Below are positions 12,999 to 24,852 of a stretch of 64,000 nucleotides of DNA, in pieces. The position numbers were made by a program, and so were the translations under genes. The DNA lies in NCBI RefSeq assembly GCF_003925875.1, contig NZ_AP019309.1, forward strand, positions 496,001 through 560,000, given 5' to 3'. Origin of the DNA: Intestinibaculum porci. GTDB taxonomy: Bacteria > Bacillota_I > Bacilli_A > Erysipelotrichales > Coprobacillaceae. A model generated the notes under the pieces. That model was not told the origin of the DNA, did not search any database, and worked only from the letters and a program-made list of their open reading frames with translations. The stretch's first letter is position 1; every line of letters starts with the position of its first letter.

Positions 12999-13299
12999 TG
13001 TGGTTGTTACAATTAATAAATGTTCTCTTATCTATCTGTCCTGTTGATCTTTATCATCAATAGATTATGAGTGCTTTTAAGTGGAGACATTTAGTTGGCC
13101 ACTATTATGAGATTAGTAAATAATGAGATGCATTCTTTGGCGTTTCGTCGATTGTAACCAAAATGGGAAAAAGAAGTATAAAATCAATGGTAACTAGAGA
13201 AAGCAAAAAATAATTCACAAAAGCGAAAATAATAAAATGCAATTTTAGTGTTGAAATTGACAATATGTTTAATAGAACATATAATTGATTAGAAAAACA

Positions 13300-13932
13300 A
13301 TGTATACAATTGATTTCTACGATACTGCGGATGGAAAATGTCCTGTTGAGGATTTTTTAAAGTCACTTGATGACAAAATGCGTGCTAAAGCTTTTAGAAC
13401 AATTGATTTACTTGAAAATAATGGCCCTGAACTTCGTGAACCATACTCAAAAGCTTTAGATGATGGTATTTTTGAGTTAAGGGTTAAGCAAAGCTCTAAT
13501 ACAACTAGAATATTTTACTTTTTCTTTACTGGAAAGAAAGCAATTCTGACAAACGGGATTGTAAAGAAAACTCAAAAAACACCTAGGGCCGCGTTAAGAC
13601 AGGCAAAGAAATATCGATCTGATTACATAGGAGGAATTGTCATGACTAGCTATAAAGACTATAAACAAATGGCTTTACAGGACCCTGATTTCAAAGCTGA
13701 ATATGATAAGCTTCAAGAAGAGTATGATCTTATTCAGGAATTGATTGATGCCCGCAAACAACAACATCTGACTCAAAAAGAGCTTGCAATGAGAACTGGA
13801 ATTACTCAAGCTGATATTAGTCGAATCGAAAAAGGCTTAAGAAATCCAAGTCTCTCTACTGTGAAAAAAATGGCTCAAGGGCTTGGAAAGCAAATAAGAC
13901 TTGTTCCTGCAACAAAGAAAGTCAATTTATAA
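13300..13932 (+). CDS. HigB-HigA toxin-antitoxin, fused in one frame
   Basis: A 210-residue frame (ATG 13300; a TTG at 13285 is also open) holding two normally separate proteins. Residues 1-108 are a RelE/HigB-type (phage Gp49-like) mRNA interferase: IDFYDTADGKCPVEDFLKSL, ELREPYSKAL, LRVKQSSNTTRIFYFF. Residues 115-210 are the matching XRE antitoxin, with MTSYKDYKQMALQDPDFKAEYD and the helix-turn-helix LTQKELAMRTGITQADISRIEKG. A perfect internal ribosome site AGGAGG (13630-13635) precedes the antitoxin ATG at 13642, so free antitoxin can still be made. Usually the toxin stops before this point. The frame ends exactly where the Tn7-like end begins (13933). Confidence 0.85.
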   Translation: MYTIDFYDTADGKCPVEDFLKSLDDKMRAKAFRTIDLLENNGPELREPYSKALDDGIFELRVKQSSNTTRIFYFFFTGKKAILTNGIVKKTQKTPRAALRQAKKYRSDYIGGIVMTSYKDYKQMALQDPDFKAEYDKLQEEYDLIQELIDARKQQHLTQKELAMRTGITQADISRIEKGLRNPSLSTVKKMAQGLGKQIRLVPATKKVNL

Positions 13933-14325
13933 TGTATACGACTAATTTATTAGTTTCCTATATGCACCAATGTATGTGGCTTTGCTTAATAATTTGAGTG
14001 TTAAACTTATTTATTAGTTTAAATTGTCTAATGTGATGTGATTTAACAACAATATAATGAGTTTCCTTTTAACAATTACTTGTCGGAAGTGTTTTCTTAC
14101 AAGTGGTTCTTAATGAAAAATCAGTGATGATTTCAGGAATCTCTTCATTAAAATTAATCGCAAGGAATAATAGGAAAATGATCAATTTATGAATAATTAC
14201 CTGTTTTCTACGAAATTAATAATAAAGTCGGGGAAACTAATTAAATAGTACTAATTTTTAAAACAGTGAGCGATAAAATACCACTCACTGTCAACGAATA
14301 TTAAGTTTTTAATTTAAACTAATTA
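13933..14325. mobile_element. Internally deleted Tn7-like element (element 1)
   Basis: The first bases, TGTATACGACTAATTTATTAG, repeat the left end of the complete element at 15560, with similar spacing of the following TnsB-type sites. Bases 14121-14206 match the 3' end of tnsA (compare 15745-15825). Bases 14211-14262 match the right-end region of the complete element (compare 22561-22605: TTTTCTACGAAATTAATAA and GGAAACTAATTAA). The right terminus ACTAATTA abuts CCTTT, as in the complete element. So this is a left end, a stump of tnsA and a right end, with the genes lost. The left flank is TATAA, not CCTTT, so its original left junction is altered. A hairpin ACAGTGAG/CTCACTGT lies at 14263-14291. 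Confidence 0.7.
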
Positions 14326-14330
14326 CCTTT
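14326..14330. repeat. CCTTT junction 1
   Basis: Five bases CCTTT between the right end of element 1 and the left end of element 2; the same five bases recur at 15555-15559 and 22694-22698. Confidence 0.6.
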
Positions 14331-14341
14331 TGACTTCATCA

Positions 14342-14459
14342 AATTAAAAAGTTAATTAGAAAAAGGTTGTTTTTCTTTTTATTTGTTATGCTTGGTTTAA
14401 TTTAATAGTTAATATTTGATAATTTTAACAAAAACACAGGTTTAATTAAAAAGTTAATT
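14342..14459. repeat. Three direct repeats at the left end of element 2
   Basis: AATTAAAAAGTTAATT at 14342-14357 and 14444-14459, with a variant TTTAATTTAATAGTTAAT near 14396-14413. Spacing of about 50 bases resembles the arrayed TnsB sites of Tn7-type ends. Confidence 0.5.
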
Positions 14460-14596
14460 TTTAAAAAATGGCAATAATAGATCTACTGTTTATTTATTCA
14501 CTATTCTTGCATGTACATCTATTTTTTGTATAATCATAGCTAAGATAACTTGTGAAGGATAAACACTTTATCTTTTTTCTTTGGATTTGATAAAAA

Positions 14597-14628
14597 AGCG
14601 GAGTACAACGCAGGCATTGTACTCCGCT
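14597..14628 (-). terminator. Strong hairpin terminator
   Basis: A 12-bp perfect stem AGCGGAGTACAA/TTGTACTCCGCT with an 8-base loop. On the minus strand it is followed by TTTTTATC, so it would terminate transcription from the Abi remnant upstream of it. Confidence 0.75.
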
Positions 14629-14686
14629 AAAAACTATTGTTTTTGTTCACTAACGGCATTATACATGACACTTTCTAGGAAATCAA

Positions 14687-14995
14687 TTATTTTAGACACT
14701 TTCTAGGAACTATTATTTCTTTTGACGCTCCGTCTTTATAGATTTCATAATACATTGAGTACAATTTTATAAACTCTCCAAATGATAGCACTTCAATCAA
14801 TGCCCATATAGGCCATTGATTATCGTATTTATAAATCAAATCTGCACTAGCTGAATCATTCATTTTTCGTTTAATACTTTGATGATTTATACCACAAAAA
14901 AATTTAATATATTCGGCTATATTTGCGATATTTGAAGCACTTATTTCCACGAAAAAACTTAATATTGGATAAAATTGTATTTTTGTGAGTACCAC
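14687..14995 (-). pseudogene. Fragment of an Abi-like (Abi_2 family) phage-abortive-infection protein
   Basis: The readable part NQWPIWALIEVLSFGEFIKLYS matches the Abi_2/AbiD-F signature (PIWVLIEVLSFG...LSKLY). The family is usually about 300 residues; here only about 60 related residues remain. The upstream part of the frame (14890-14995) runs through repeat arms and is not Abi-like, so the gene is truncated. A direct repeat GACACTTTCTAGGA (about 14669 and 14694) lies at its 3' end. It was probably a defence cargo gene of a former transposon. Confidence 0.55.
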
Positions 14996-15483
14996 GAAAA
15001 AATTTAATATCGAACAAAAAGAGAGTATGAATCGTTTGATTAAAGCGATAACAAACGTAGCTATAATATCTAAAAGATTAGAATTTGAGATATCATTTTA
15101 GATCATGAAACTCAAAATAATTATACTGTTGATTACATATCATCATACATCTAACTTAAGAAAAATAGACCGATTTTCCTGTAAAAGGAGATCAGTCTAT
15201 TTGTTTTATTGGAAAATATGCTGATTATACATTGTATTTTAAATTTATGACCTTGATTAAAAAATGAGATCTTTCTTGTATTTAATTTATAAAGTATTTT
15301 GAAGATAGAATAGGATATATTTATTTAAAATGATTATCATAGCTTCTGTATTTACTCCATTTTGCAACATATTAAGTTTTTTAAAATAATCATTAAGTTT
15401 TTTCGTGGAAGAAAAAGGAGCTAAAAAGCTCCTAAAAATGAGTGATATTAAGTTTTATCGCGGTATATTAAATTATTTCGTGG
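14891..15483. repeat. Six-copy inverted array, three copies facing three
   Basis: Copies of CCACGAAAAAATTTAATAT occur on the plus strand at 14891-14910, 14947-14965 and 14991-15010, and in reverse orientation at 15392-15408, 15445-15463 and 15464-15483. A layout of three sites facing three is that of the two ends of a Tn7-like or Mu-like transposon, here only about 0.6 kb apart and without genes. The space between (15011-15391) contains no gene, only a terminator. Confidence 0.6.
15163..15212 (+). terminator. Hairpin terminator inside element 2
   Basis: AAATAGAC..TTTTCCT pairs with AGGAGAT..GTCTATTT (15163-15202), followed by TTGTTTTATT. A smaller hairpin AGGAGCT/AGCTCCT lies near 15416-15437. 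Confidence 0.65.
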
Positions 15484-15554
15484 AACTATTCACCCTCTCT
15501 AAAAAGTATTTAAAAAATTAAATTGCATTTAAAATTTTTTAATTGGCTGAATCA

Positions 15555-15559
15555 CCTTT
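15555..15559. repeat. CCTTT target-site duplication, left copy (complete Tn7-like element)
   Basis: CCTTT directly precedes the left terminus TGTATACGAC; the matching copy follows the right terminus at 22694-22698. Five bases is the duplication length of Tn7-type transposition. Confidence 0.7.
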
Positions 15560-15705
15560 TGTATACGACTAATTTATTAGTTAGTTTCCTATATACACCA
15601 ATATATGCGGCTTTTGTCCAATAATTTAGGCATTAGAACTAATTTATTAGTTTATGTTATATAACGTTATTGTGATTTAACAACAATATAATTAGTTTCC
15701 TTATA
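15560..15705. repeat. Left transposon end with three TnsB-type sites
   Basis: Reverse-oriented sites at 15568-15590 (ending TTAGTTTCCT), 15637-15654 (AACTAATTTATTAG) and 15690-15701 (AATTAGTTTCCT). Element 1 carries the same arrangement. Confidence 0.65.
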
Positions 15706-15716
15706 AAGTTTACCTA

Positions 15717-16412
15717 TCAAAATTTTTTATTTTCCAAGTATTTTTCAAATAAATCATCGGTGATGATTTCAGAAGCTTCTTCGTTAAAGTTAATCACTTG
15801 GGATAATGGGAAAATGATCGCCCTGTGAATAATCAAATGCTTTAAGAGCTCTTCTTTTGTTCGTACATTATCTTTATTCCAAAATTCAGAACAAATTTTA
15901 ATATTTATTGCTTCTCGTTTATTTACGAATTGATCAGTGAAAATGATTCTCCAAGGAATATTATGGGATTTCCAATACTGATATTCAATATAACATTTTT
16001 CAACTACTCTTCGATGTTTAACGGGATCGAGGGATTTACGTGATGATGTAACAAAATAAGCGATATAGTGACCGCTTTTATCCTTTACAAGAAGATGAGT
16101 GAGCATACGTTTTGTTCCGTGGTTAAATCTTTTATAACCAAGTGAGTCAGCAATATTATTTGTTTCATCAAGATTAAGTGGATACTGTTCGTAAACATCT
16201 AAAACATAATCCTTGTAGCGCAAGATAAGGTATGCATAAAACTGATTTAAACCTAAGAAATGCATAAGACGTCCTGATTTCCAGTCAGTAAAGCTGCATG
16301 TTGTATGTGAAGCTGTAGTGTATTCCTGGGACTGAATCCAAGCCTGATAGTATTCATCTATTGTATTCCTCTTTGCTTTTTCTTTGGCTTCTTCGCTCAT
16401 CTTTTTTGGCAT
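15717..16412 (-). CDS. tnsA: TnsA-like transposase subunit with lost nuclease triad
   Basis: Homologue of the Tn7 nuclease that cuts the 5' ends of the transposon (231 residues; 273 in Tn7). Clear landmarks are DWKSGRLMHFL, VLDVYEQYPL (Tn7 VLDIREQFPL), EKCYIEYQYWKSHNIPWRIIFTD (Tn7 EKLELERRYWQQKQIPWFIFTD) and a C-terminal helical TnsC-contact region. At the three catalytic positions of the Tn7 enzyme (Glu63, Asp114, Lys132) this protein has Gln57, His106 and Thr122, so cleavage is not expected. The start at 16412 has AGGAGG 10 bases upstream and overlaps the tnsD 3' end by 59 bases. In Tn7 tnsA is first in the operon; here it is last. Confidence 0.88.
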   Translation of the reverse strand: MPKKMSEEAKEKAKRNTIDEYYQAWIQSQEYTTASHTTCSFTDWKSGRLMHFLGLNQFYAYLILRYKDYVLDVYEQYPLNLDETNNIADSLGYKRFNHGTKRMLTHLLVKDKSGHYIAYFVTSSRKSLDPVKHRRVVEKCYIEYQYWKSHNIPWRIIFTDQFVNKREAINIKICSEFWNKDNVRTKEELLKHLIIHRAIIFPLSQVINFNEEASEIITDDLFEKYLENKKF

Positions 16413-18744
16413 TATTAATGATCCTCCTGAATTTCTTGATAATTTGAGGCTTAGTTATATATTTTTCAAAATCATCTGCTGAATAGTTATGATTTTTCAT
16501 GAATGTAAGGATTGTTTGGTCGATATCCCATCCAAAGCGATAGGAACTCTCTAAAAGACTAACCATTTGTAAGATTTGCCAGTTTTCTTCAGTAATAGTA
16601 AAGGCACATCCTTTAATTTTTATTGCTTTTCCATTAATTTTAAGATTGCGCCCGTGCAATTGTGATTCTTTATTAGTGATGATCATTGATATAACAGGTT
16701 TTTTCTGAATAATTCCTAAATTATATGCTAGCTCATCGCCATAATTAAAGCCAATATGCTGATTCTTTCTGTTAATGTACTTTTGATTGATGATATCATC
16801 AACTGTGATATAGCTATTATAGTAAGCGTATGCACCAGTGGTTATTCGTTTTAAAAATTTCTTTTCTATTAATTTCTTGAGATAGCTTTTCAACTGATTA
16901 GATGGGATTTGATTGAATGATTTTAAATCTTCAATAAAAATAATGTCACAGGCTTTATAGTGACCTTGAATATATCTTTTTAGTTCATCTTCTCTATTGG
17001 TATTTTGGTATTTATCTTTCCGCTCTAGAGGGAGAACAGTAGATGGTGTTGGCTTATTTAATTCCTGTAAGATCATCGCCTTGGTAAGAGTAACGCTTTC
17101 ATTGGTTTGAGTGTTTATGACTTTGTAACGCTCTTTTGATTTTTCGATCACTTTGTAAACACCAATTGATACCGTATTTACATAGGTGTAGAAAGTTGGA
17201 TCAGGCATTTGTTTCCGGCAGAATGGACATCTGGTACCTTGAAAGAAATCGCGAGGTAAGATGGTAAATTCCTTTTTGCACTTGTTGTGTTTTAATGTGA
17301 TAGGGGTATTCATATTCGTATAATTTCCCATCAATGTATATTCTGTACCAACGAGTTTTTTTAAATCTTGTTTGAAATCTTGATTTGATCTATTTCTTGG
17401 TGCTTTTTGATTACCACAAATGCGACAATAAGGATGCCTGGTATAGTTGATATATTTTGTGGTGAATGTTTTACCACATTCAGGGCAACGGAATGTAGCA
17501 TCAGTCTCAGTGCTATTAAAACGGATTAGTTTCATGGGCGTAATACGTTGCCTGGCTTGATCAATACTGATTTGTGAATTGCAAGGACAGCGTTTATGTT
17601 CAAAAAGGAAGTTGCGCGGTAAAATGGTATAAGTTTGACCACAAATAGTATGCTTGATAGTAACTTTTTTGCTTAATGATTCAAATGTTGATAAGACCTT
17701 ATATTCTCCATAGCCTGAGATTTCCACCATTCGTTTGAACATTTCATTCGGTGAGAGGTTTTGCAGACAAGTTGGGCATTCCCAGCCTTCTAAGAAAGCT
17801 TTTGGCGTGGTAAGAAAATGGGTGTTGCAGCAAATGTGTTCCATTTCAATTAAGTTTCGGCGAAATGGATAAAACACATGATAGCCTTGAGAAGCAACTT
17901 GTAATTCTCTGATCTCTTCTTGCTTATAACCAGGAATAGGAATGTTTTCCGGTTCAGGAAAACAAATATAAAGTAAAATAAGTGCATCAGCCCAATTAAA
18001 TTCAGAATAAGAGGGGAGGATTCTTTTACGGGTATACTCTAACGAGTTATGAATGAGTTTATCTAAGTGATTACTCACTAGACGATCTTGTAGTACATTT
18101 AATCCAATCGAATCAAAAGCATTTACTAAGGCAGGTTTTAAATCTTCAAGTGCACAGTCAAGTTGTTGGTTAGACATTTCTCTGATAAAATTGTCAAATT
18201 GTGGATTAGCGGGGGCTTCTAATGGCGCGAAGAGCTCGTATTCAAGCTCATGTCCTTTTGGCCCTGTATAAGTAATTAATTTACAATTATGCTTTTCACA
18301 CGTTGTAACAAAGGGAAGATTTTGAGACTTTAAATACCACCAAAAGCCATATTTTTGTTTCATTTCCTTTAAACATTCAGGACAAATTTTTAACTGAGTG
18401 ATAAATTTATTGGGAGTGTATTTCAGAGGATTATGTTGGTGAAAGCAATTGCCTAAGAGTGCACCTTGTTTTGCGGATACAAGTAATGGTGCAATTAAGG
18501 GATAGATTGTGGATTTAGAGAAGAATACTGACCAATCGAGTCCGTCAATATGAGAAAAAATATGGCCAAGATACTCAAAGGTATCGTATCGGAAATACGA
18601 TGGTCGTCCCATCATATTCCCGCCATTAATATAGTCCTTGAAATGGCTGGCATCAGGAAAGCCGTTAGTGGCTGATAAGCGTAAAATATATGAATAAAGA
18701 ATTTCATCATCCATTCGTTTTGGATTCAAAAGCATAAATCCCAT
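16354..18744 (-). CDS. tnsD: TnsD/TniQ-family target-site selector
   Basis: Sequence-specific DNA-binding protein that brings the transposase to its attachment site. The 796-residue size is of TnsD class, not short TniQ. N-terminus: LNPKRMDDEILYSYILRLS followed by the TniQ zinc motif ICPECL..CEKHNC (about 1-190). Residues about 300-510 carry at least four further zinc-ribbon units of the type CxxH/HxxC...CPxC (for example HNKCKKEFTILPRDFF then CPFC). The C-terminal third has a winged-helix-like segment. The start has GGAGG 8 bases upstream, inside the tnsC stop region. Long TnsD proteins normally read the 3' end of a conserved gene, which here would be nrdD. Confidence 0.9.
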   Translation of the reverse strand: MGFMLLNPKRMDDEILYSYILRLSATNGFPDASHFKDYINGGNMMGRPSYFRYDTFEYLGHIFSHIDGLDWSVFFSKSTIYPLIAPLLVSAKQGALLGNCFHQHNPLKYTPNKFITQLKICPECLKEMKQKYGFWWYLKSQNLPFVTTCEKHNCKLITYTGPKGHELEYELFAPLEAPANPQFDNFIREMSNQQLDCALEDLKPALVNAFDSIGLNVLQDRLVSNHLDKLIHNSLEYTRKRILPSYSEFNWADALILLYICFPEPENIPIPGYKQEEIRELQVASQGYHVFYPFRRNLIEMEHICCNTHFLTTPKAFLEGWECPTCLQNLSPNEMFKRMVEISGYGEYKVLSTFESLSKKVTIKHTICGQTYTILPRNFLFEHKRCPCNSQISIDQARQRITPMKLIRFNSTETDATFRCPECGKTFTTKYINYTRHPYCRICGNQKAPRNRSNQDFKQDLKKLVGTEYTLMGNYTNMNTPITLKHNKCKKEFTILPRDFFQGTRCPFCRKQMPDPTFYTYVNTVSIGVYKVIEKSKERYKVINTQTNESVTLTKAMILQELNKPTPSTVLPLERKDKYQNTNREDELKRYIQGHYKACDIIFIEDLKSFNQIPSNQLKSYLKKLIEKKFLKRITTGAYAYYNSYITVDDIINQKYINRKNQHIGFNYGDELAYNLGIIQKKPVISMIITNKESQLHGRNLKINGKAIKIKGCAFTITEENWQILQMVSLLESSYRFGWDIDQTILTFMKNHNYSADDFEKYITKPQIIKKFRRIINNAKKDERRSQRKSKEEYNR

Positions 18745-18747
18745 AAA

Positions 18748-20319
18748 CTATTCCTCCACGTGTTTCACGATTTCTTCATAGGCATTATTAATATCGAAAT
18801 ATGGCTTCTTTTTAGGAGAAGGTTTGACGCTTCCTTTGCGATTGTTGAGTTTTCTTAAGGCAAGTTTAATGATTTGATCATCGGTTGAGTTAGGGTTGTT
18901 GAGAAGGATACTGCTAACAGCGCTCTGGATATCCTTATAGGGAATATCATTTTCACTCGCAATTTTGTCAGTAATGTCATTGATTCTATTAGGAATAGAC
19001 GGAGGATCTTGATTCAGAATTGAACTTTTATTTTCTTCTTGAAGTGGCAATTCCTTTTCATACATTTCTTCAGAAATATAAGGATTATAATCAGTTTTAA
19101 TTCTTTGATTTGATTTTAAAGAACATGACTGTGCACATTGATAAATAAAATCAGAAGAGATTTCAGGTGGATTTCCATGGCTGGAAAGCTCCAGATAACG
19201 CTTATTCATTTCTTTATAAATAGCAATTGTTAAGCCGATTGTGCCTTTGGTTTGGCTAAAAAATAACTCCATCATTTCGCTAGTGAAATGAACTTTTGTT
19301 GTAAACCATTGGAATTGGGTGATTTGAGCAAGGATGTTCATATATTCATCGTGATTCTGACAATATTCTGAAGCATCAATATCTCGTCCGAATCTCCTGC
19401 ACATTTGCCAGGTAGGGAAAAGTTTCTCTTTATCTGATTGTGTTCCGACAATCGCTAATGCAACGCCAGTGCGGTTATTGAATGAAAGCAAACTTTCGAG
19501 TGTTTCCTTTCGCGTCGAGGTTTTAATAAACTCGATTTCATCCAGAATAATAATGCCAACTTTAAAAAGGGTACAAAGTCGCACTGCATAATCGAGTTTT
19601 TCATTGAGTTTTCGACATTTTTTCATTTGAAGATAGTAAGCCATAGATTCATCGTTGCCGATAGCAAGGTCAATTGCCTGGGCGATACTATCCCAAATTG
19701 CGGACATGTTTGTATTAGGCTGACAAACGATATATAAATAAGGAAGCTGGATGAACTGTTGAGGTGTTTGAGGATAGTGGATAATAACTTGAGGCAAATG
19801 AGAAAGTGCTAACTCAACAGCTTTGGACTTTCCACAGCCAGAAAGTCCAAGTACTGAAAAGCCGGGGTTACCTTCACTAATGGGAAAGCGAACGCGATAT
19901 TTTTCTGATCGCTCCTGTCCGCTGATTGATAATTTGATACCGCCAGATAAAGGATCAAAAATAAGTTTTCTGTTTTCATAAGCTCTTAACATACACCAAT
20001 AAATTTCTCGCTGCAGTTCATAATGCCACCGCATTGGAATAATCAATCGGTCAAGAGCATTAACGGAACTAAGCCTAAATTGAATAGGCATAGAGGCTAA
20101 CTTTTTGGGTGATGGGACTGTAATCATACGAAAGTTATCCATGGCTAATTCGTTTTGAGATAAATATAATGGTAATGCTTCAATGAGCGGATTGCCGTGA
20201 TAGACATCATTCATTTCACTTAAATCCATATATTCAGCATAGACTGCAGTAGATTGGGACAAATCATAGTCTTCATATAATTTGCTATCTGATTTGAGAT
20301 CCTTGTAATGATATTTCAT
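18748..20319 (-). CDS. tnsC: TnsC-like AAA+ ATPase, transposition regulator
   Basis: ATP-dependent matchmaker between the target-bound TnsD and the TnsA/TnsB transposase. The 523-residue protein has a Walker A GLSGCGKSKAVEL (about 153-165), a Walker B IIILDEIEFI (about 253-262) and a following sensor region ALAIVGTQSDKEKL typical of TnsC/TniB. The C-terminal 120 residues are charged and low in complexity and may contact TnsA/TnsB. The gene lies 21 bases after tnsB and ends four bases before tnsD, so the operon is tight. Confidence 0.92.
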   Translation of the reverse strand: MKYHYKDLKSDSKLYEDYDLSQSTAVYAEYMDLSEMNDVYHGNPLIEALPLYLSQNELAMDNFRMITVPSPKKLASMPIQFRLSSVNALDRLIIPMRWHYELQREIYWCMLRAYENRKLIFDPLSGGIKLSISGQERSEKYRVRFPISEGNPGFSVLGLSGCGKSKAVELALSHLPQVIIHYPQTPQQFIQLPYLYIVCQPNTNMSAIWDSIAQAIDLAIGNDESMAYYLQMKKCRKLNEKLDYAVRLCTLFKVGIIILDEIEFIKTSTRKETLESLLSFNNRTGVALAIVGTQSDKEKLFPTWQMCRRFGRDIDASEYCQNHDEYMNILAQITQFQWFTTKVHFTSEMMELFFSQTKGTIGLTIAIYKEMNKRYLELSSHGNPPEISSDFIYQCAQSCSLKSNQRIKTDYNPYISEEMYEKELPLQEENKSSILNQDPPSIPNRINDITDKIASENDIPYKDIQSAVSSILLNNPNSTDDQIIKLALRKLNNRKGSVKPSPKKKPYFDINNAYEEIVKHVEE

Positions 20320-20340
20320 GGAATGTCACATCCTTGCATG

Positions 20341-22512
20341 TTAATCTTTATATCCAAATTTCTTCAGGAATGCTTCTTTGAATTTTTCAGGATCCTCTTC
20401 ATCAATAACCTGAAATAAATCATTATCATTCTTGTTATTTTCTTTTGAGTATTCACTATTATTATCTTCGATTGTGGGATTGTCATTAGAATCGGGACTT
20501 GTTTCGTATAAACCAACAATATTTGCAAAACTGTGTTCTTTATTATCAATTTCTTTTTCAGTTTGAGAGTTTTTTCTGATTGCATTTGAAGCTGTTGGCG
20601 ATGGTGTACTATTACGTTGGTCTCTAATATCCTCTAACTGTTTGTTATAGGCAATACGTTTTTGAAGATTATCATGTCTATTTTTAGTGATTTGTTCACG
20701 ACTTCTTTTTTGATAGTTCATAAACATATCATAAGACATATTAGCATAATCCATTTGCTCAGGATATAAGGGATTAAGATGGGCTTGAAAAAGGACACCA
20801 TCGCGAATGTAGTAAATATTCCTCATGCTTGCTTCATCATAACGAATATCCATCTTTACTGTTTCCAAATTGTTTCTCATATATTTGATGAGATAATTAT
20901 CGGAATTGCACATGTAATGAAGGCCCTTGAAAACAATACCCTGTCTTCCCATGCTAGCTTTGGCAGGCTTCATAAGAGTCCAAATATATTGATTGACATT
21001 CATATGGATATATCGTGGAGAATTTTTTTCAGAATAGAATTTCCATAATTCAACAGGTGAAGCTGAAATGTTACGTTCTATCATTTCAGGAGAACGAAAA
21101 CGACTTTCAATGACGCGATTATTGTGATAAATGATATAGCTAACCATGATTTTTCGCATATCATCAATATTGAGACATGCTGTTTTCTTGTGATCAGAAT
21201 CATGTCTTTTAAGGATGAGTCCGCGTTTTTCAAAGGTATCTCCCATTGCTAAATTAAACTGGTGGAACTCTTTTTCAACGGTTCCTTTCATCGAGCCAGT
21301 CGCAGCTGGAACTAGCTGGATTGCAATATTTAATTCATGACATTTTCTTCTGAATTCTTTTGAGGTAAATTCGCTGCCACGATCGCATCTGAGGGTTCCA
21401 GGAAGAATATCTGTTGGCCATAAGTCATCACTTTCAAGTGTTAAATGAGTCTCTGCAAGTAATTGATCTCTTCCTTCTCTTTTAAGATTCATCATAACAT
21501 TAGAAACTGCTGCGTTAGAATTATCCTCAAAAGAGACGCTGCCAGAGATGATCATCCCGGTTAAGACATCAATAATCAAATACATATGCGCACGATTAAC
21601 TAATTTTTCAGGATCATTCTTACTTACTAAGTAAATATCGGTAGGGGTGGCATCAATATCACAGAGTTCTCCAGGATAAGTTAAGTCATTACGTTCTGTT
21701 CCAATGATTGCGCGATGATTATTTTGATATTCACGTGCGGATGTTCTGATAATTTGATATTCATTTTTGGAAATTTTCTTATTAACGAAATTATAGAATT
21801 GTCTCAAAGTTGGATATCTTCCCATCGGATAAAGCACATGATGGGCATTGCCATCCTCATCAATTTCGATGTTACAGTAATGTTTTCTGAGCATTTCTAC
21901 ATAAGCATCTTTTTTTGTTCCGCTATGGGTATGATTTTTGCGAATGGATTCCACCGCTTCATCCATGTTTTTAATATCTTTTTCCGTTAAAATAATGGCA
22001 AACTTCTCGCCGCTGATTGTTGTTCTGCCTGCAGGCGTTGAATATTTTTTGCGTCCTAGGGGAGCACCTCTTTGGTCAATTAGACTAGAAAGTTGGCAAC
22101 CGCTTCGAAGATATTTAATAATTATTTTTCTTAGATTTTGAATTGAAATCCCATATTTATTAGATAATTCTTGAAGAAAATGCTTATTACTTTTTTCTGT
22201 TAATTCTAAATAACCTGGTCCGTAATATTCATTGATTTCGTTAATTATATTTAGATTTCTTTCGTATCTTTGTTTTTGCTTAGGAGAGAGATCATCGACG
22301 TTTACTATCACTTGTGAAGGCTCGATTTTACGAAAGCTTCCGTTTTCTAGTGATGATAACACGGTTTCAGTTGGCTGTTGTATTAAGGTAAGAGTGAAAT
22401 TTGGTGAGGTATCCAGACAAAGAATAGTGATGTCGGTTGATACGTAAATGATAGCGTACTTATTATGATGAATGTCTACAATATGATCGCCTATTGAATA
22501 ATTTATAGACAT
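20341..22512 (-). CDS. tnsB: TnsB-like DDE transposase
   Basis: Catalyses 3'-end cleavage and strand transfer. The 723-residue protein has N-terminal DNA-binding helices (for example NKYGISIQNLRKIIIKYL, about 112-135), then an RNase H-fold integrase core with the triad LCDIDATPTD, LRCDRGSEF and GTVEKEF, with exactly 35 residues between the last Asp and the Glu. A mu-type beta-barrel domain and a charged C-terminal tail follow. The start has AGGAGG 8 bases upstream. It is the first gene of the operon, and its promoter would lie within the right transposon end (22513-22600), allowing autorepression by TnsB binding. Confidence 0.93.
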   Translation of the reverse strand: MSINYSIGDHIVDIHHNKYAIIYVSTDITILCLDTSPNFTLTLIQQPTETVLSSLENGSFRKIEPSQVIVNVDDLSPKQKQRYERNLNIINEINEYYGPGYLELTEKSNKHFLQELSNKYGISIQNLRKIIIKYLRSGCQLSSLIDQRGAPLGRKKYSTPAGRTTISGEKFAIILTEKDIKNMDEAVESIRKNHTHSGTKKDAYVEMLRKHYCNIEIDEDGNAHHVLYPMGRYPTLRQFYNFVNKKISKNEYQIIRTSAREYQNNHRAIIGTERNDLTYPGELCDIDATPTDIYLVSKNDPEKLVNRAHMYLIIDVLTGMIISGSVSFEDNSNAAVSNVMMNLKREGRDQLLAETHLTLESDDLWPTDILPGTLRCDRGSEFTSKEFRRKCHELNIAIQLVPAATGSMKGTVEKEFHQFNLAMGDTFEKRGLILKRHDSDHKKTACLNIDDMRKIMVSYIIYHNNRVIESRFRSPEMIERNISASPVELWKFYSEKNSPRYIHMNVNQYIWTLMKPAKASMGRQGIVFKGLHYMCNSDNYLIKYMRNNLETVKMDIRYDEASMRNIYYIRDGVLFQAHLNPLYPEQMDYANMSYDMFMNYQKRSREQITKNRHDNLQKRIAYNKQLEDIRDQRNSTPSPTASNAIRKNSQTEKEIDNKEHSFANIVGLYETSPDSNDNPTIEDNNSEYSKENNKNDNDLFQVIDEEDPEKFKEAFLKKFGYKD

Positions 22513-22591
22513 ACGCAGTACCTCCTGTAAGCGCTTGATTTTTTTCGATTGTAGTATAGCACTATTTTCTACGAAATTAATAAAAAAGTTG

Positions 22592-22693
22592 AGGAAACTA
22601 ATTAATTAGTAAAAAGGAAGAGCAATAATTGCCCTTCCTTTTATGATAGGAAACTAATAATTGTACAGGAAACTAATTAATTAGTACTAATTA
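22592..22693. repeat. Right transposon end with three TnsB-type sites and a hairpin
   Basis: Sites AGGAAACTAATTAATTAGTA at 22592-22611 and 22667-22686, with a shorter copy at 22648-22665. Between the first two is a hairpin AAAAGGAAGAGC/GCCCTTCCTTTT (22612-22642) that could terminate nrdD transcription and shield tnsB. Confidence 0.75.
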
Positions 22694-24852
22694 CCTTTGT
22701 ATACACGGTTGTCTAAATGAACGAAACGTTCTCCAATTTCCTGTGTGCGGCCTTTATTCCAGAAGTTATCACCAAGATAGCCACAGGTACGACGACATAC
22801 GTTTAATGTTTTATGGTTTCTGTTACCACAGTTAGGGCAGTACCATTCACCATTTTCATCAAGTAAGATTTCACCATCGAAACCACATTCCTGACAGTAA
22901 TCAGATTTAGTATTGATTTCCGCATACTGGATGGTGTCATACATATAGTTGATTAATTCTTTCATGGCTTCAAAGTTATTTGTCATATTTGTGACTTCGA
23001 CATAAGAGATAGCACCGCCAGAAGAGATGTTCTGGAATTTTGCTTCAAAGCCTAATTTAGAGAAAGCATCGATATGTTCACGAACATTAACGTGATAAGA
23101 GTTAGTAATATAGTCTTTATCAGTAACGCCAGGGACAATACCGAAACGACGTTTTAAGGTTCTTGCAAACTTATAAGTGGTAGATTCAGCTGGTGTACCA
23201 TATAAAGCGAAGCCTAAACCAGTTTCTGCTTTCCAGGTATCAACTGCTTCTCTTAAACGTTTCATAATAGCAGTCCCTAATTCATCACCTTCACGAGAAG
23301 TATGAGAAGTACCTAATAATGCTTCGACACATTCATATAAGCCAATATAACCTAATGAAATAGTAGAATAACGAGAATCTAATAATGCATCAATGGTTTC
23401 TCCTGGTTTTAAACGAGCGATGGCACCATACTGCCAGTGAATAGGGGAAACATCAGAGATGGTTCCTTTTAAGTTTTCATGTCTTAACATTAAAGCTTCA
23501 TAACATAATTCTAAACGTTCATCTAAGATCTTCCAGAAGGCATTTAAATTACCACGTGCGGATAAACCAACATCGGTTAAGTTTAATGTCACAACACCCT
23601 GGTTGAAACGGCCATACCATTTGTATTCTCCGTTTTCATCCTTGAAAGGAGATAAGAAAGAACGGCAGCCCATCGGACCGAAAACCTGACCTTCATAATT
23701 CTGTTTCATGATTTTAGCAGAGATGAAGTCTGGCATCATACGTTTAGAAACACATTTAACAGCTAAGTCTGTTAAATAACGATATTCACTATCATCTGGG
23801 ACATTGTTTTCATCTAAGACATATAATAACTTAGGGAAAGCTGGTGTAACATAAGCGCCTACAGGGTTCTTCATGCCGACATAACGCTGCTTTAAGACTT
23901 CTTCAATTAACATCGCGGTTTCTTTGGTATATTCAGGTTCTTCATTTAAATACATGAAGATCGATAAGAATGGTGCCTGACCATTAGTTGTGGAGAACGT
24001 ATTGATCTGATACTGAATCGTCTGCACGGCAGCTTTGATTTCATCCTTTAAACGGCTCTGAGCAATCTTTTCGATCTGTTCATCGCTGTAGCTGATGCCG
24101 ATTTCATGGCCTTCTTTTTCGACAGCTTTCTTATGCTTATTATAAGAAACACGTACGAATGGTGATAAGTGGGCTAATGAGATGGTCTGTCCGCCATACT
24201 GACCGCAGGCTACCTGCTGAACGATCTGGGTCGCGATGGTGGCTGCTGTCTGCAGTGATTTAGGGGTTTCAATTAACTTGCCGTTAATGACTGTGCCGTT
24301 GGCAAACATATCTTTTAAGTTCACCAGGCAGCAGTTAAACATCTTCTGAATAAAGTAATCCATATCATGGAAATGGATAATGCCATCATCATGCGCCTGG
24401 ACAATCTTTGTTGGCAACATCATACGACGACAGTAGTCACGGGAGAATTCTCCGGCGATCAAGTCACGCTGAGTGGCTAAAACGGTGGCATCCTTGTTGG
24501 AGTTTTCATCCATCGCTTCTTTATTGGTCTGTTTAACGATGCCATAGATTTCTTTATCAATAGTGTTTTCTTCTCTCTGGAATTCACGTACCTTACGATA
24601 ACCTTCATAAGCTTTCGCAGTTAAAACAGCGCCTTTATCAATTAACTTTTCAAAGACCTGACCTTCAATACGTGTGATATCAATGGCTTTGGCACCATTG
24701 TTAGTATGCCATTCTTCTATTTCACTAGCGATCTCATGAGCGATCTTTTCATCGACCATACCGCTGCCGTAGCGCATTGCTTTTAAGATCGCTTTCTCAA
24801 TTTTGCTGGCGTCAAATGGGACTCTTGACTTATCTCTTTTAATTACTTCCAT
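22687..24852 (-). CDS. nrdD: Anaerobic (class III) ribonucleoside-triphosphate reductase
   Basis: Makes deoxyribonucleotides under anoxia using a glycyl radical. The 721-residue protein has an N-terminal ATP-cone (VIKRDKSRVPFDASKIEKAI, about 1-95), the catalytic barrel with NCCLVNLKDMF and MGCRSFLSPF, and a C-terminal zinc site CQECGFDG/CPNCGNRN followed by the glycyl-radical motif RRTCGYLGDNFWNKGR. The last codons and TAG stop overlap the end of the Tn7-like element: ...AAA GG from the chromosome, T AAT TAG from the transposon. The activase NrdG, usually the next gene, is not in the window. Confidence 0.95.
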   Translation of the reverse strand: MEVIKRDKSRVPFDASKIEKAILKAMRYGSGMVDEKIAHEIASEIEEWHTNNGAKAIDITRIEGQVFEKLIDKGAVLTAKAYEGYRKVREFQREENTIDKEIYGIVKQTNKEAMDENSNKDATVLATQRDLIAGEFSRDYCRRMMLPTKIVQAHDDGIIHFHDMDYFIQKMFNCCLVNLKDMFANGTVINGKLIETPKSLQTAATIATQIVQQVACGQYGGQTISLAHLSPFVRVSYNKHKKAVEKEGHEIGISYSDEQIEKIAQSRLKDEIKAAVQTIQYQINTFSTTNGQAPFLSIFMYLNEEPEYTKETAMLIEEVLKQRYVGMKNPVGAYVTPAFPKLLYVLDENNVPDDSEYRYLTDLAVKCVSKRMMPDFISAKIMKQNYEGQVFGPMGCRSFLSPFKDENGEYKWYGRFNQGVVTLNLTDVGLSARGNLNAFWKILDERLELCYEALMLRHENLKGTISDVSPIHWQYGAIARLKPGETIDALLDSRYSTISLGYIGLYECVEALLGTSHTSREGDELGTAIMKRLREAVDTWKAETGLGFALYGTPAESTTYKFARTLKRRFGIVPGVTDKDYITNSYHVNVREHIDAFSKLGFEAKFQNISSGGAISYVEVTNMTNNFEAMKELINYMYDTIQYAEINTKSDYCQECGFDGEILLDENGEWYCPNCGNRNHKTLNVCRRTCGYLGDNFWNKGRTQEIGERFVHLDNRVYKGN
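22694..22698. repeat. CCTTT target-site duplication, right copy, inside nrdD
   Basis: On the nrdD strand these bases are AAAGG, the codons TAC AAA GGT near the C-terminus, so the target lies within the coding region. Confidence 0.7.

Follow-up and report, generated by a model that had tools for sequence, protein, structure and literature searches.

The window analysed here is a stretch of 64,000 nucleotides, positions 496001-560000 of the 3.21 Mb single-contig genome of Intestinibaculum porci (G000), a bacterium of the same order as Lactimicrobium massiliense (G076). Three elements are stacked in it at the 3' end of nrdD, the gene for an anaerobic ribonucleoside-triphosphate reductase, and the one that lies against the gene is a complete Tn7-like element. 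The features of this locus are as follows, in window coordinates.

22687..24852, minus strand: nrdD, anaerobic ribonucleoside-triphosphate reductase, the host gene, with the attachment site at its 3' end (PF13597 and NF006732 matches).
22714..22794, minus strand: last conserved nrdD codons (RRTCGYLGDNFWNKGRTQEIGERFVHL), putative TnsD recognition region; conserved among the nrdD tails compared, with binding suggested by analogy to glmS and TnsD.
22694..22698, plus strand: CCTTT, the copy of the target duplication next to nrdD; the element starts 20 nt from the His-Leu codons.
15560..22693, minus strand: complete Tn7-like element of 7.1 kb, with tns genes and defined ends.
20341..22512, minus strand: tnsB, DDE transposase with the catalytic DDE retained (aligned with Tn7 TnsB, 7pik, E 7.9e-32).
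18748..20319, minus strand: tnsC, AAA+ regulator (PF13401 and PF05621).
16354..18744, minus strand: tnsD, target selector of 796 aa with an N-terminal TniQ domain (PF06527, E 1.2e-15); its relatives adjoin nrdD.
16453..16992, minus strand: C-terminal AbiEi/DUF6088-like domain of TnsD (about residues 585-764), putative DNA reader (hhalign; Foldseek top match 6y8q).
15717..16412, minus strand: tnsA, open frame with the catalytic residues replaced (Q57, H106, T122; PF08722).
15555..15559, plus strand: CCTTT separating the complete element from the 1.2 kb element.
14331..15554, strand unassigned: 1.2 kb element without tns genes, with AAATTAAAAAG-type ends and an Abi_2 gene remnant.
14687..14995, minus strand: Abi_2 remnant, probably cargo (PF07751).
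14326..14330, plus strand: CCTTT separating the 1.2 kb element from the relic.
13933..14325, strand unassigned: relic of a related element, which retains its far end, the last part of tnsA and the inner portion of its nrdD-side end.

Read away from nrdD, the complete element presents tnsB, tnsC, tnsD and tnsA, besides which it has only two open reading frames (ORFs) of at least 80 aa, both antisense. An earlier sequence-only reading of the locus had described a complete tnsBCDA element; the four genes do stand in that order, but TnsA lacks its catalytic residues. The nrdD-side end supplies the stop codon of nrdD (GGT AAT TAG). The far end was fixed without the help of CCTTT, the 23 bases from 15560 being identical to the 23 bases from 13933, where the similarity starts. 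Repeats are seen at the element ends and are candidate TnsB binding sites. At 15560-15567 the far end (TGTATACG), reversed beside AAAGG, resembles the nrdD end (GTATACAAAGG), possibly by coincidence. The relic matches the complete element at 77% identity between 13933-14197 and 15560-15833 and at 90% between 14201-14250 and 22562-22611, which bears out the description of this 0.4 kb piece as a deleted relative; comparison of the ends agrees with that of the 1.2 kb piece as an element with different ends. The Abi_2 remnant is 97.8% identical over 179 nt to an open frame of 321 codons that genome G018 carries in its nrdD-linked region. Beyond the relic, a Gp49/HigB-like toxin and a helix-turn-helix antitoxin share one open frame (13285-13932) whose stop adjoins the relic's outer end, and an internal GGAGGA with ATG suggests a separate start for the antitoxin.

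The sequence-only reading had placed CCTTT at every junction. The word is present at 14326-14330, 15555-15559 and 22694-22698, but not at the outer end of the relic (13933), which is flanked by TATAA. The five-base duplication around the complete element stands, with CCTTT on both sides of 15560-22693; a five-base target duplication is likewise present at the 1.2 kb element (CCTTT) and in G076 (CTAAT), and absent at the relic's outer end. CCTTT occurs 206 times in the window on both strands (shuffle mean 161), or at about 0.16% per position, so that the word alone is weak evidence and the case rests on the ends and on the relatives. Three boundary-defined copies by chance are improbable, but both boundaries of the 1.2 kb element were partly picked with CCTTT in view.

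Relatives of the host gene provide occupied and unoccupied sites. The nrdD tail is present in 141 of 315 genomes of the order, and 13 loci (L004-L016) carry the nrdD type of the window. In seven of these (G020, G014, G004, G031, G021, G027 and G035) an nrdG-like gene begins at most about 40 bases past the nrdD stop; tblastn confirms the gene in the first three, and the other four calls are read from a near-identical start. In G009 and G016 a hairpin follows nrdD (by eye) with no recognisable element end, and in G009 a galM-like gene converges on nrdD from 75 bp away. In the remaining four (the window, G018, G026 and G001) nrdD runs directly into transposon-end-like repeats. G001 belongs to another species of the same genus; there the repeats are followed, directly past nrdD, by a decayed TnsD with stop codons in its overlapping continuation contig (C23), 40.7-57.5% identical in pieces to the TnsD of the window. 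The proposed alignment of nrdD 3' regions with and without insertions has thus given unoccupied relatives with an nrdG or galM-like gene after nrdD, and insertions at the same point in G001, G018, G026 and G076 support the claim that one attachment site has served repeatedly, with G118 as a further case whose ends are undefined. In G018 (L047 8140-8520), a tyrosine-recombinase-like C-terminal fragment, seen by eye, precedes a second copy of roughly the final 140 nt of nrdD, and another transposon-end repeat comes after that copy; the nrdD end may there serve an integrase element as well.

The distance of these insertions from the gene is nearly constant. The final base of the His-Leu codons is separated from the element by 20 nt in the window, G018 and G026, 21 in G001 and 19 in G076, the first element base in G018, G026 and G001 having been set by its spacing to an AAATT[A/C]AAAAG repeat that matches the end of the 1.2 kb element, not by a duplication. 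The position of the stop codon varies. In G076 it comes right after His-Leu and the insertion lies downstream of it; the nrdD family of the window is about seven codons longer, and in three loci, those of the window, G018 and G026, the insertion falls inside the frame and the element supplies the stop (GG/T AAT TAG in the window, GA/T AAA TAG in the other two, the slash marking the boundary); in G001 the stop stands just before the element. Since the spacing of 19-21 nt holds while the stop moves, the distance tracks the conserved codons and not the stop. At the insertion point itself the species differ, with GAAGG, AACGA, CTAAT and others on the nrdD strand, so CCTTT is unlikely, judging from these sequences, to be recognised as such. 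The rule that an empty site without the CCTTT junction would count against the attachment site consequently fails across species.

A search of the 315 genomes with the TnsD of the window (E <= 1e-12) led to nine genomes, and in three of them (G000, G076 and G118) a TnsD with both TniQ and the C-terminal domain adjoins nrdD. G076 and G118 belong to a different family from the window genome. The gene order in G076 is nrdD, tnsB, tnsC, tnsD, tnsA, and its nrdD-side end reads CATCTG-TAATAAGAAAGAAACTAAT/TGAGTTTTTACAATTCCAGAGTGG. Contig C7 of the same genome starts with a stretch including ...CCACTTTGAAATTGTAAATATTCA/CTAAT, 56 bp before the start codon of nrdG. The two ends agree at 25 of 29 terminal bases, the next best position in the first 1,381 bases of C7 reaching 19; the same 1,381 bases hold two positions with the right flanking word, one of which is the element end. 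The element of G076 sits between nrdD and nrdG with its own five-base duplication, CTAAT, on both sides, a choice of word made post hoc. Displacement of nrdG by the element may have occurred in G076, unlike in the window genome, for which the same idea was rejected: in G009 nrdD and nrdG are already split by a galM-like operon. In G118 the order is nrdD-tnsD-tnsA-tnsB-tnsC, and the spacing of about 20 nt is not claimed for this genome, its ends being undefined. Type I restriction-modification-like genes stand behind the nrdD-linked element of G118 (L067/L096), probably as cargo. Trees of the TnsA, TnsB, TnsC and TnsD core (five sequences) join the window to G076 with a support of 96-100 and leave G118 unplaced. 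A single-sequence TnsD search of genome contigs gave no match; with alignment A2 it gave two loci, those of G076 and G118.

Listing the tnsD homologues and their neighbour genes, as had been suggested, came out in favour of a fixed site: all three full TnsDs with TniQ adjoin nrdD, as does the decayed copy of G001, in which the TniQ part was not seen. G124 has a TnsD fragment at a contig end and nrdD on another contig, G253 a shorter TnsD on a 5.7 kb contig where no nrdD was seen, and G135 and G294 match only through a stand-alone protein related to the TnsD C-terminal domain. A further TnsD, more distant and not at nrdD, occurs in both G000 and G001. In the class and phylum samples (395 and 392 genomes), all matches at E <= 1e-25 outside the window genome were to stand-alone proteins of the C-terminal-domain kind (G343, G512). 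Ten plasmid records match TnsD, all within its middle region (query residues 265-578), the viral search gave one weak match, and no viral contig contained the exact pattern of either the nrdD end or the element end.

A survey starting from the transposase served as a control. The TnsB model (window, G076 and G118), applied to the 315 genomes at E <= 1e-30, found 13 loci in nine genomes. The three at nrdD are the model's own rows. By comparison of positions, nrdD was not found beside the other ten; in draft genomes it is mostly on another contig, and G113 has no nrdD match. No nrdD appears in the wider flanks of six of the ten (G225 C38, G113, G123, G001 C200 and two further G000 loci); the other four are G225 C35, G084 (two loci) and G016, the last a single contig with the locus 1.3 Mb from nrdD. 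The window genome has two further Tn7-like clusters (C1 1634000-1648000 and 2132000-2142000), the second having its tnsB in two parts on either side of a transposase-like ORF and lying beside a gene that is presumably L,D-transpeptidase-like.

Clues on how nrdD might be read come from the C-terminal part of TnsD. Residues 585-764, approximately, are homologous to stand-alone DUF6088 proteins (hhalign probability 99.9, E 4.3e-32, 178 columns). PF19570 (DUF6088) was found in all four stand-alone proteins scanned, one of which (L064) has an AbiEii toxin gene as its neighbour; DUF6088 was not reported when the TnsD domain of the window was itself scanned against Pfam. The AlphaFold model of TnsD is of low quality as a whole (mean pLDDT 52.5), and only its C-terminal domain was taken into account, where 14 of the 18 ten-residue blocks of residues 581-760 average a pLDDT of at least 75 (range 57-89) and where the only PDB match by Foldseek at E <= 0.001 is the AbiEi antitoxin 6y8q.

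The DUF6088 profile was also compared with six further TnsD/TniQ proteins and with the G001 remnant. The remnant, at nrdD, retains the distal part of the domain (probability 92); the second TnsD of G000, not at nrdD, matches in the winged-helix part only (92), the tRNA-linked TnsD of G001 has at most a weak winged-helix match (20), and the half-TnsD of G082, without TniQ and away from nrdD, has the distal part (95). No match was obtained with the selectors of G225, G113 and the third G000 cluster (probability <= 1.2). The idea that TnsDs unlinked to nrdD wholly lack the AbiEi domain was rejected on the partial matches in the second G000 TnsD and in G082. From this survey it follows that the selectors combining the complete domain with TniQ are, in the cases seen, those at nrdD, and that winged helices of the AbiEi type are in wider use. 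By these comparisons, we infer that the AbiEi/DUF6088-like domain is the likeliest reader of nrdD, and it is a plausible DNA reader in nrdD-linked TnsDs. The TniQ-less protein of G082 (L068 8159-9784) may be the remnant of a pseudogene, or may represent an independent use of the domain.

The nuclease of the complete element departs from its relatives. TnsA of the window has Q, H and T where five of five aligned relatives have E, D and K, at the positions of E63, D114 and K132 of Tn7, which we take to be the catalytic residues of Tn7 TnsA; the Tn7 numbers were counted along the TnsA alignment, and phmmer aligns K132 to another residue. A literature search for these three residues gave no paper that combined four of its six terms. 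The residues of an active nuclease, a feature that is not universal in the Tn7-like family, are thus not retained in the TnsA of the window, while TnsB retains its DDE residues in the alignment to Tn7 TnsB, at what we assume to be the catalytic positions. There is a precedent in a CRISPR-associated transposon, where a TnsA D90A mutant gave >95% cointegrates (from an excerpt of PMC8188705). Together with that precedent, the loss of the catalytic residues implies that the element copies via cointegrates or is stalled: it probably moves by copy-and-paste or not at all, and is a possible natural copy-and-paste Tn7-like element. That TnsA is still an active nuclease through other residues, with ordinary cut-and-paste, has an intact open frame and a match to Tn7 TnsA (1f1z, E 5.7e-14) in its favour; the replacement of all three residues and the mutant precedent speak against it, and we consider it improbable.

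We are confident that a Tn7-like lineage uses the 3' end of nrdD as a fixed attachment site, with codons that TnsD would read, a stack formed by repeated landing, a putative AbiEi-like reader and, in the window, a copy that is probably TnsA-impaired. TnsD would recognise the last conserved codons of nrdD, by analogy with its binding at glmS, and then recruit TnsC on the downstream side; TnsB would join the element ends 19-21 nt past the His-Leu codons with a five-base duplication, a geometry taken from the comparison of species. In both tns-bearing elements with two defined ends, it is the tnsB end that faces nrdD. Insertion would leave intact the codons that TnsD reads, so that each arrival would land between nrdD and the previous one, building a stack with the youngest element nearest to the gene; where nrdD has a C-terminal extension, insertion would fall inside the frame and the element end would supply the stop. 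Decay rises with distance from nrdD, from four open tns frames to a cargo remnant and then a deleted relic, an order that, in this one genome, fits successive arrivals next to the gene.

Several observations weigh against the attachment site as described. No same-species empty site is present among the genomes compared, and TnsD-nrdD pairs number only four, one of them decayed. The outer end of the relic has no CCTTT and is preceded by CAATTTATAA, leaving the oldest element without a matching duplication; the far end in G026 also lacks one (by eye). The two ends of the G076 element are on two contigs, so the bridge between them is one that we infer. The ends in G118 are undefined and, by eye with the spacing rule, the end would fall at the nrdD stop and not about 20 nt beyond. 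In G082, the half-TnsD with the distal C-terminal part and without TniQ is on C14 and nrdD on C96.

Other DNA does gather at this place, as shown by the tyrosine-recombinase-like fragment of G018 against a second copy of the nrdD 3' end and by the transposase-like ORFs (by eye) near nrdD in G018 and G026, and the nrdD end could be a general insertion hotspot where elements settled without TnsD reading nrdD, for example as a harmless site. The near-constant distance of 19-21 nt in four lineages, the five-base duplications in two of them and the ten other TnsB loci, none of which was found beside nrdD (wider flanks read for six), make this very unlikely.

The surroundings of the stack have their own history. 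In the window genome a galM-like gene ends at genome position 463689 and nrdD at 518687, with a 55 kb island between them. The genome has two nrdG genes (C1 455373-455876 and 482446-483003), each beside a luxS-like gene; the second pair lies in the island and matches another genus, being 92-98% identical to the pairs of G018 and G026, and stands beside pilus-like genes up to 81% identical to G018 (the galM-like, luxS-like and pilus-like labels are those we presume for these genes). Judging from these identities, part of the island looks imported. A single composite element or a rearranged single insertion, with CCTTT repeated by coincidence or recombination, might be suggested by this block import and by the missing outer CCTTT of the relic, but every element has a separate pair of ends, the pairs being of two types and meeting at CCTTT, and decay grows with distance from nrdD, which leaves that explanation with very little probability.

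The attachment site that we favour has its closest counterpart in attTn7, past glmS. With Tn7 it shares TnsA, TnsB, TnsC and TnsD, the five-base duplication and insertion a fixed distance past conserved codons at the 3' end of a housekeeping gene; Tn7 lands about 25 bp away from where TnsD binds the glmS end, and the sequence at its insertion point is neither required nor conserved (in the excerpted text of PMC2918618). It differs from Tn7 in its target, in the gene order B-C-D-A, in the replaced catalytic residues of TnsA, in inserting, in the family of the window, inside the last codons, and in a TnsD with a C-terminal AbiEi-like domain; the window element has no fifth ORF of at least 80 aa on the tns strand, tnsE itself not having been searched for. 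The AbiEi antitoxin (type IV toxin-antitoxin, DUF6088, PF19570, 6y8q) is homologous to the TnsD C-terminus, but is a stand-alone protein. Another related element, on G001 C200 (L049) beside tRNA-Thr, has the same tnsB-C-D-A core, with the tRNA-Thr gene behind the tnsA end; its TnsD is 30% identical to that of the window and shorter, the alignment reaching residue 645, approximately the end of the winged-helix part.

Other Tn7-like elements share a TniQ-family selector, with a diverse C-terminal region (excerpt of PMC10293859). The excerpted part of PMC11406308 names glmS, yhiN, comM, parE, tRNA genes and plasmid resolution sites as targets, and nrdD does not occur there. The suggestion that nrdD may be a new target agrees with its absence from the Tn7-family sites found in the literature searched, which did not cover supplementary site tables. 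Neither nrdD nor "ribonucleo" occurs in the main texts of PMC10293859 and PMC8649781, and no paper among the matches listed combined nrdD or an anaerobic-ribonucleoside term with Tn7 or TnsD terms; nrdD and genomic-island terms appear together, among the matches listed, in one paper, on Bordetella petrii (PMC9120033). Among the matches listed, AbiEi occurs only in PMC8649781, in whose excerpted text AbiE is a cargo table entry.

In this light, nrdD looks like a previously unlisted home for a Tn7-like family. The fuller picture, of a Tn7-like lineage that homes to nrdD with an AbiEi-derived reader, lands in the last codons, supplies the stop and, in the branch of the window, has turned to copy-and-paste through a dead TnsA, is less likely than not, the more so because winged helices of the AbiEi type also occur in TnsDs unlinked to nrdD. 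DNA can land safely at the fixed attachment sites of Tn7-like elements. Such a site at nrdD, a gene of anaerobic metabolism, with a reader traceable to an antitoxin, would offer a testable example of how a target reader is acquired and possibly an insertion tool for bacteria of this order, and the dead TnsA would parallel, in nature, the laboratory mutants in which cut-and-paste movement is converted to copy-and-paste.

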